Of a stretch of DNA of 64,000 bases, positions 62,507 through 64,000 are shown in pieces; position 1 is the stretch's first letter; every line of letters begins with the position of its first letter. Source of the stretch: Haloactinopolyspora alba (GTDB lineage: Bacteria; Actinomycetota; Actinomycetes; Jiangellales; Jiangellaceae); the NCBI RefSeq assembly GCF_003014555.1, contig NZ_PYGE01000006.1:1-64000 (forward strand), read 5' to 3'. A program made the position numbers and the translations under genes. Below the pieces are notes generated by a model that did no database searches, was not told where the DNA came from, and worked only from the letters and a program-made list of their open reading frames with translations.

Positions 62507-62655
62507 GTCACCTGATCGTTCGTGCACTGTCGATCAGGTGCTCCGCGCCGGCGCCACCCCCGCCGTGCGCGTCACCTGATCATGTCCAGATGCCGGACGC
62601 GAAACGATCAGGTGACGCCGTGCCCGGAAACCCCCCAGCTGTGTCACCTGATCGT
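62507..62655. repeat. five alternating copies of CACCTGATC
   Basis: Copies of the core cacctgatc lie at about 62509, 62573 and 62645 (plus) and 62532 and 62605 (minus). The first plus/minus pair makes a 10-bp stem around a 12-base loop, and the second makes an 11-bp stem (gtcacctgatc/gatcaggtgac). The fifth copy is single. The cluster lies downstream of both flanking genes. Irregular spacing and alternating orientation rule out CRISPR. Confidence 0.8.
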
Positions 62656-62757: not shown

Positions 62758-63777
62758 TCAGTTCGACTGTTCGGACTCGGTGACGGCGTCGGCGCGACGC
62801 TGGTCGTGCCGGCTCTTGAGTAGGCTTGCGACGGTCGTGACCAGCAACGTTCCGACGATGACCGTCAGCGACAGCCAGATCGGCACCTCGGGGACTCCGT
62901 GCAGCCCCTCGCCGTTGTTCACGAACGGCAGGTTGTTCTCGTGCAGCGCATGCATGATCAGCTTCACGCCGATGAACGCCAGAATGACCGCGAGTCCCGC
63001 CGACAGGTACACGAGGCGTTCCAGGAGACCGCCGATCAGGAAGTACAGCTGCCGCAACCCCATCAGGGCGAAGATGTTCGCGGTGAAGACGATGAACGCC
63101 TCCTGGGTCAGCCCGAAGATCGCCGGGATGGAGTCGACCGCGAAGAGCAGATCAGCCGAGGCGATGGTCACGAAGACGATCATCATCGGCGTGTAGAGCC
63201 GCTTGCCGTCCACGCGGGTGCGCAGCTTGATGCCGTGGTAGTCGTCGGTCATCGGCAGCATCTTGCGCGCACGCCGGACCACCGCGTTCTCGTACTGCTC
63301 TTCGTGCTCGTCCTCGTGCACCTGCTGGTTCGCCAGCTTGACCGCGGTGTAGACGAGGAAGATGCCGAAGATGTAGAAGACCCACGCGAACTGGTTGATC
63401 GCCACCGCGCCGATCAGGATGAAGATGCCGCGCAACACGATGGCCGTCAGGATGCCGAACATCAGCACCGACTGCTGGTACTTCCGCGGCACCTTGAACT
63501 GGGCCATGATGATGACGAACACGAACAGGTTGTCGACGCTCAGGCTGTACTCGGTGAGCCAACCCGCATAGAACTCGCCGGACGCCTGTCCGCCCGCGGC
63601 CGCCAGCATGGCCACGCCGAACAGCACAGCAAGGCTGACATAGAACGTCACCCACGCCGCGGCCTCCTTCATGGACGGAGCGTGCGGGCGGCGGGTGACG
63701 AGGAGTAGATCGACGGCGAGCAGGAGGGTCAGGACGACGAAGGTTCCGATTTCGAACCAGACGGGAAGATCCAACAC
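62758..63777 (-). CDS. TerC-family integral membrane protein (metal exporter type)
   Basis: This 339-residue TerC protein has nine or so membrane segments and the family acidic motifs LSVDNLFVFVIIMAQF (about 90-105) and SADLLFAVDSIPAIFG (about 205-220). The charged loop between (VHEDEHEEQYENAVVRRARK) is typical. Family members such as YkoY and Alx export manganese, often with genes controlled by the yybP-ykoY riboswitch. Such a leader is present upstream here, supporting manganese export. The GTG at 63777 is chosen because the protein then begins LDLPVWFEIGTF; the longer frame reads through the riboswitch. Confidence 0.92.
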   Translation of the reverse strand: MLDLPVWFEIGTFVVLTLLLAVDLLLVTRRPHAPSMKEAAAWVTFYVSLAVLFGVAMLAAAGGQASGEFYAGWLTEYSLSVDNLFVFVIIMAQFKVPRKYQQSVLMFGILTAIVLRGIFILIGAVAINQFAWVFYIFGIFLVYTAVKLANQQVHEDEHEEQYENAVVRRARKMLPMTDDYHGIKLRTRVDGKRLYTPMMIVFVTIASADLLFAVDSIPAIFGLTQEAFIVFTANIFALMGLRQLYFLIGGLLERLVYLSAGLAVILAFIGVKLIMHALHENNLPFVNNGEGLHGVPEVPIWLSLTVIVGTLLVTTVASLLKSRHDQRRADAVTESEQSN

Positions 63778-63831
63778 GGACGCTGATTGTCCTCTCCGGT
63801 CGGTGGCAATGGGCAAACGGTCACCGCGACC

Positions 63832-63938
63832 GGAGGTCTGGTCCGCCCGAGGGTACGGGCCGGAGGCACCGGGTGCCCCCACCAGTCGGGGAGCATCCGT
63901 GATGACGATGCCACCGCGTCGGGATTACTCCCCTCCAC
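63832..63938 (-). promoter_or_regulatory. yybP-ykoY-type manganese riboswitch in the terC leader
   Basis: On the minus strand the leader begins GGAGGGGAGTAA (about 63936-63925), has a central ATCGTCATCACGG loop and ends ACCAGACCTCC (to 63832). The outer GGAGG and CCTCC pair as P1. These are the conserved blocks of yybP-ykoY aptamers (GGGGAGUA, UCGUCA-type loop, AAGACC before P1). CCGGTCG at the 3' end can pair with CGACCGG just before the GAGAGG ribosome-site region, a possible expression platform. The 54 bases to the GTG complete the leader. Confidence 0.8.
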
Positions 63939-64000
63939 GTCGGTACCAGTATCTCACAACCACCATCGTGGTCAGGAAACTCGCAGGTGAAGCGGTCGCG

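Follow-up and report, generated by a model that had tools for sequence, protein, structure and literature searches.

A probable alx-class manganese riboswitch predicted to switch on translation of terC in Haloactinopolyspora alba

In the window, the whole stretch of 64,000 nucleotides of Haloactinopolyspora alba DNA analysed here, the leader of the terC gene probably forms an alx-class Mn2+ riboswitch that acts as a translational ON switch. The full reading is assigned a probability of about 0.87. In it, the leader acts in cis as a Mn2+ riboswitch of the yybP-ykoY class, most closely resembles that of E. coli alx in type and activates terC translation, and TerC exports Mn2+. The assignment of the leader as a riboswitch is strongly supported by comparison of sequences, namely by covariation, an invariant adenosine at the predicted metal site, the cross-detection of the E. 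coli alx leader and the presence of a second element before a GDT1 gene. The riboswitch-like character of the leader, which an original prediction had recognised from the letters of the window, is thereby confirmed.

The leader is encoded on the minus strand and extends from approximately 63953 to the GTG start codon at 63777, with the aptamer located directly upstream of terC. When the sequence is read directly, the conserved blocks occur where the original prediction placed them and follow the expected order (GGAGG-GGAGUA ... CG-UCAUCAC-GG ... CC-CGGUGCC ... CAGA-CCUCC, followed by ...ACCGGAGAGGA...GUG); from 63941 the leader reads GACGUGGAGGGGAGUAAUCCCGACGCGGUGGCAUCGUCAUCACGGAUGCUCCCCGACUGGUGGGGGCACCCGGUGCCUCCGGCCCGUACCCUCGGGCGGACCAGACCUCCG, then GUCGCGGUGACC...CACCGACCGGAGAGGACAAUCAGCGUCC-GUG. 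The span of 63778-63960 proposed at that stage does hold the entire leader, including a -10-like promoter element, while the aptamer proper is restricted to 63831-63941. Consensus promoter and terminator scans of the leader returned nothing, and the -10-like element places the predicted RNA start just ahead of P1.1. The features of the region are as follows.

63948-63953, minus strand: -10-like element GATACT, seen directly; a TANNNT-like element occupies the same place in close relatives.
63831-63941, minus strand: predicted Mn2+ riboswitch aptamer (yybP-ykoY class, three-way-junction form), from the score with model R3 (see below) and covariation.
63932-63936, minus strand: P1.1 5' strand, GGAGG, pairing with 63832-63836 (98-99% paired, both-sided changes in 3 of 5 pairs).
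63926-63931, minus strand: L1 5' strand, GGAGUA, in 88 of 88 aligned sequences.
63922-63925, minus strand: P1.2 5' strand, pairing with 63841-63844; three of the four pairs form in the window leader.
63906-63915, minus strand: P3.1 5' strand, GGUGGCAUCG, pairing with 63862-63871 (CGGUGCCUCC); 10 bp with one U-U mismatch, both-sided changes in 8 of 10 pairs.
63899-63905, minus strand: L3 bulge UCAUCAC, 7 nt.
63889-63898, minus strand: P3.2 5' strand, pairing with 63872-63880; all seven variable pairs change on both sides.
63845-63860, minus strand: P4 hairpin GCCCG-UACCCU-CGGGC, both-sided changes in 5 of 5 pairs.
63837-63840, minus strand: L1 3' strand, CAGA; the consensus GAGA is found in 84 of 88 sequences and the C at 63840 is unique to the window leader.
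63832-63836, minus strand: P1.1 3' strand, CCUCC, from the alignment; also part of the ribosome-site hairpin.
63794-63835, minus strand: competing hairpin of CUCCGGUCG (63827-63835) with CGACCGGAG (63794-63802); local fold -26.1 kcal/mol, also part of the optimal fold predicted for the complete leader.
63790-63797, minus strand: Shine-Dalgarno-like GGAGAGGA, ending 12 nt ahead of the GTG start, a long spacing, though one common to close relatives.
62758-63777, minus strand: terC, Alx-type TerC membrane protein of 339 aa with a GTG start at 63777 (PF03741, E 1.5e-50; TIGR03718).

The fold common to the aligned leaders comprises P1.1, L1 (GGAGUA/GAGA), P1.2, P3.1, L3, P3.2 and P4, of which P1.1 is the closing stem described in the original prediction. 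In L1, the A at 63929 is the counterpart of A10, which forms a cross-helix A-minor contact in the X. oryzae structure (PMC6754395). L3 is 7 nt long in every aligned sequence and the C and A at its positions 2 and 3 are invariant (88/88); in the window leader it is flanked by the CG/CG of P3.1 and by P3.2. The solved aptamers carry the L3 sequences UCA41AUUC (L. lactis) and ACA48UACU (X. oryzae), in which N7 of the numbered adenosine touches Mn2+ and mutation of this base abolishes the Mn response (PMC6754395). The window bulge matches both at this position, and the A at 63903 is thus predicted to be the Mn2+-sensing adenosine, equivalent to A41 and A48. P2, found in the four-way-junction aptamers, is absent, with just a short single-stranded linker between P1.2 and P3.1. 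This helix is not treated as defining for the class, as a three-way form has been reported for S. pneumoniae mgtA (PMC9495176). The 3' strand of L1 in the window is one base off GAGA but retains the GA adjoining P1.1. Among the other 87 aptamers position 63840 is occupied by G in 84 and by A in three, and the congener has G; the C of the window might represent a weakened motif, a functional variant or a sequencing error.

As the single-sequence fold energy of the leader is unremarkable (z -0.76) and is not used as evidence, support for the aptamer is comparative. More than 20 related genomes carry the element in the leader of terC and, among 16 members of the window's family, mean pairwise identity reaches 0.81 over the aptamer, while the flank preceding it has 0.40. 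The alignments used were A2 and those fitted to covariance models, which replaced an initial MAFFT alignment covering every leader (A1) with P3.2 and P4 misplaced. Three models were built: R1 from 17 terC leaders (16 of the window's family and one from elsewhere in its class), the wider R2 from 88 sequences, and R3 from 72 sequences, with both the window's family and its genome excluded to guard against circularity. On the R3 alignment, which like others of its type is model-fitted and biased toward the model, 28 of 33 pairs show changes on both sides, a figure reached in none of 500 shuffles and approached by no slide, and 95.7% of the paired cells are filled by pairs, against 72.1% in shuffled alignments. 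An unfitted alignment of 17 rows agrees, with double changes in 10 pairs versus 4.3 when shuffled. R1 scores the window, which is part of its training set, at 115.5 bits, while R3 recovers it at 82.4 bits (E 1.4e-19 within the window, 1.2e-17 genome-wide). Homology to an experimentally established member is indicated by detection of the E. coli alx leader with R1 (36.7 bits, E 2e-7) and R2 (51.7 bits, E 6.8e-12). Of 297 genomes belonging to the window's class, 158 have a match to R1, and of 247 sampled from the phylum, 56 have a match to R2. Comparison across genomes thus defines a consistent predicted aptamer fold, the conserved bases of its metal site, a mutually exclusive pairing and the gene context.

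The original prediction had named a covariance search with RF00080 (Manganese) as a check, and here it fared badly: this model is meant to describe the yybP-ykoY class, and the window falls below detection both at its gathering score (45 bits) and at E<=10. However, in E. coli RF00080 likewise finds no alx leader at E<=1 and gives the mntP leader 41.6 bits, under the cut-off, so that the miss reflects a weakness of the model and its score is no fair test of class membership. Its printed structure line is without the P1 helix and with a long tail, which may explain the failure. RF00080 exceeds its cut-off in none of the 297 genomes of the class, and one class member that it matches (G037) is also matched by R1. 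Routine annotation consequently overlooks a familiar switch, the Rfam model being blind to a common regulator in this class, and a better model would allow Mn-responsive genes to be listed across the phylum, including candidates beyond the known transporters.

In the window's own genome, R3 identified one further match, at C5:100050-100147 (plus strand; locus L001 1470-1567; 70.9 bits, E 1.3e-14). This second candidate Mn2+ riboswitch, with the L3 sequence ACAGACU, precedes a GDT1/UPF0016 gene (PF01169), whose family includes the Vibrio Mn exporter MneA. The competing hairpin of this candidate is long and GC-rich and is situated well upstream of the start codon. The candidate was missed by Rfam and by the fast search with R1, while R1 applied directly to the locus gave 49.2 bits. 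Two weak R1 matches in the same genome, on C21 (19.5 bits) and C9 (17.7 bits), were discarded, as they are absent with R2 and R3. In V. parahaemolyticus, mneA and terC are each preceded by a yybP-ykoY element, are Mn-induced and lower cell Mn (PMC13274385). The window's genome also encodes an Nramp-type importer.

The genes downstream of the 88 aligned elements code for TerC (73), GDT1 (8), an uncharacterised protein (4) and unclear or other products (3), and seven further GDT1 cases are found among loci flagged by RF00080 (L126-L136). The type of L3 bulge tracks the downstream gene: the UCA type accompanies TerC in 73 of 73 cases and the ACA type accompanies GDT1 in 15 of 15, comprising 8/8 among the 88 aligned aptamers (A3) and the seven flagged loci. 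Both types are also found in E. coli, in alx (UCAUUAC) and mntP (ACAUACU). In Microbacterium and relatives (L095, L103, L112, L114, L138-L150), all 13 named loci have an R2 element (63-74 bits) followed by a gene for an Ala/Gly-rich protein of approximately 250-310 aa. The one member searched had no Pfam match, and these proteins appear to constitute an orphan family under candidate Mn-riboswitch control. Other genes following aptamer matches code for a PGPGW membrane protein (L119 640-972), a GreA/GreB-like protein (L121 756-1403) and a protein that, judged by eye, is possibly Na+/Ca2+-exchanger-like (L127), while L082 is an unclear case. Whether the Actinomycetota hold a large Mn2+-riboswitch branch missed by the current Rfam model is evenly balanced; such a branch would have a three-way junction and in many cases a link to the ribosome site, its L3 type would be paired with the transporter family, and it would also control genes without a known Mn link, such as the Microbacterium orphan family.

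The pairing element near the ribosome site that had been suggested as possible proved to be real. CUCCGGUCG, made up of the P1.1 3' strand and the bases after it, can pair with CGACCGGAG, a strand that shares bases with the ribosome site GGAGAGGA. Across genomes the switch strand and the ribosome-site strand change together (CCUUCGGC/GCCGAAGG, CCUCCGAC/GUCGGAGG, CCUCGAACG/CGUUCGAGG, CCUCAG/CUGAGG), with a pairing score of 17.3 for a strand with its own partner, compared to 14.6 +/- 0.46 for between-genome swaps and with none of 10000 permutations as high. The excess also holds for 21 distinct strands that do not begin with CCUCCGG. In most terC members the paired strand includes the ribosome site; the second pairing is missing in some members, and others, especially those before GDT1, have their competing hairpin a long way from the start codon, so that the mode of control may differ there. 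As formation of P1.1 and sequestration of the ribosome site are mutually exclusive, a translational ON switch is the simplest reading. Mn2+, the predicted ligand, would bind where L1 (GGAGUA) docks on L3 (UCA*UCAC, the asterisk following the metal-sensing A), and the docked fold would stabilise P1.1, holding CCUCC and leaving GGAGAGGA free. Without Mn2+, CUCCGGUCG would instead pair with CGACCGGAG and hide the ribosome site. TerC would be made only when Mn2+ is plentiful, and would then reduce cytosolic Mn2+ through export.

Several points count against this explanation, namely the lack of a match to RF00080, the C at 63840, the absence of P2, the long ribosome-site spacing and the distant competing hairpin of some members. 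The original prediction itself named a poor RF00080 score as a refutation, and the terC frame is open upstream to a GTG at 63882, two points in favour of a conserved leader that is no riboswitch but a protein-binding site, a leader peptide or a DNA operator. That reading is scarcely credible given the RNA covariation over all helices, which rejects the leader-peptide and operator readings, the detection of E. coli alx, and loop lengths that vary in a manner incompatible with a coding frame or operator. A yybP-ykoY structure responding mainly to another signal, whether Ca2+, Ni2+/Co2+ or pH, would find precedent in the S. pneumoniae mgtA aptamer, which binds Ca2+ tightly (PMC9495176), and in alx, the regulation of which is also alkaline-pH-dependent (PMC9603457, PMC13274385); the Mn2+-selecting adenosine is, however, invariant and the downstream targets are Mn exporters, rendering this very improbable. 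Control of transcription termination, intrinsic or by Rho, rather than of ribosome access is also unlikely, if less so. Many class members are transcriptional, the competing hairpin is GC-rich and in the GDT1 elements it sits well upstream of the start codon, but in the window it is followed by neither a U-run nor a terminator-like site in the leader, and the inclusion of the ribosome site in the paired strand of most terC members argues for translational control.

The remaining alternative concerns the protein rather than the RNA: a real Mn2+ riboswitch may govern a TerC that mainly metalates exported enzymes, like MeeF/MeeY of B. subtilis, instead of performing detoxifying export. The TerC proteins of B. 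subtilis deliver Mn to exoenzymes together with the Sec machinery, with meeY under an Mn riboswitch (PMC10550928), and the GDT1 gene of the window's genome, under its own element, could handle detoxification. Conversely, the window TerC belongs to the Alx subfamily (TIGR03718, 383.1 bits, cut-off 246.4) and not to the YkoY subfamily (75 bits, below the cut-off), and Alx and V. parahaemolyticus TerC are both described as lowering cell Mn (PMC13274385). Metalation as the main role is thus a tentative possibility. Mn2+ export is plausible and is the likeliest role of the window TerC, in view of its riboswitch control and Alx subfamily; the step from riboswitch to exporter is nevertheless one that we infer, given the metalation of exported enzymes in B. 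subtilis and the description of the role of the TerC family as controversial (PMC13274385). The window TerC shares 41% identity with E. coli Alx, and a sequence search of the PDB found no relative. As its subfamily is already called Alx/riboswitch-controlled, the gene is less vaguely named than had been assumed at the outset, although the analysis assigns putative manganese control to a TerC gene of a kind that annotations usually name after tellurite resistance.

The gap separating terC from the following gene holds, at window positions 62508-62653, one cluster of the sequence GATCAGGTGAC, which has 258 copies in the genome, compared to none for a reversed control pattern. The copies are spread over many contigs and often form clusters of four to six, in which orientation alternates from one copy to the next at spacings of a few tens of bases. 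The sequence resembles an interspersed repeat of REP/BIME-like or MITE-derived type.

The riboswitch class, its association with terC and at least one actinobacterial terC leader are already known, the latter being that of C. glutamicum terC (cg2157), an RNA-seq-supported yybP-ykoY leader that scored 49 bits in an older Rfam (PMC3890552). A literature search of incomplete coverage turned up no publication devoted to the actinobacterial form. New here are the window member, the blindness of Rfam to a class-wide form, the association of L3 type with gene family and the further controlled gene family in Microbacterium. The three-way junction of the window is shared with the form reported for S. 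pneumoniae mgtA. The crystallised X. oryzae and L. lactis yybP-ykoY aptamers have in common with it the GGAGUA of L1, the 7-nt L3 with its invariant metal-sensing A and the P1.1 switch helix, and differ in their four-way junctions with P2 and in their expression platform. The Mn2+/pH riboswitch of E. coli alx has a longer P4-side insertion, whereas the window has a higher G+C content and a ribosome-site hairpin of another sequence; like the window, it is found by the models built here, carries an L3 of the UCA type and regulates a gene of the Alx/TerC family.
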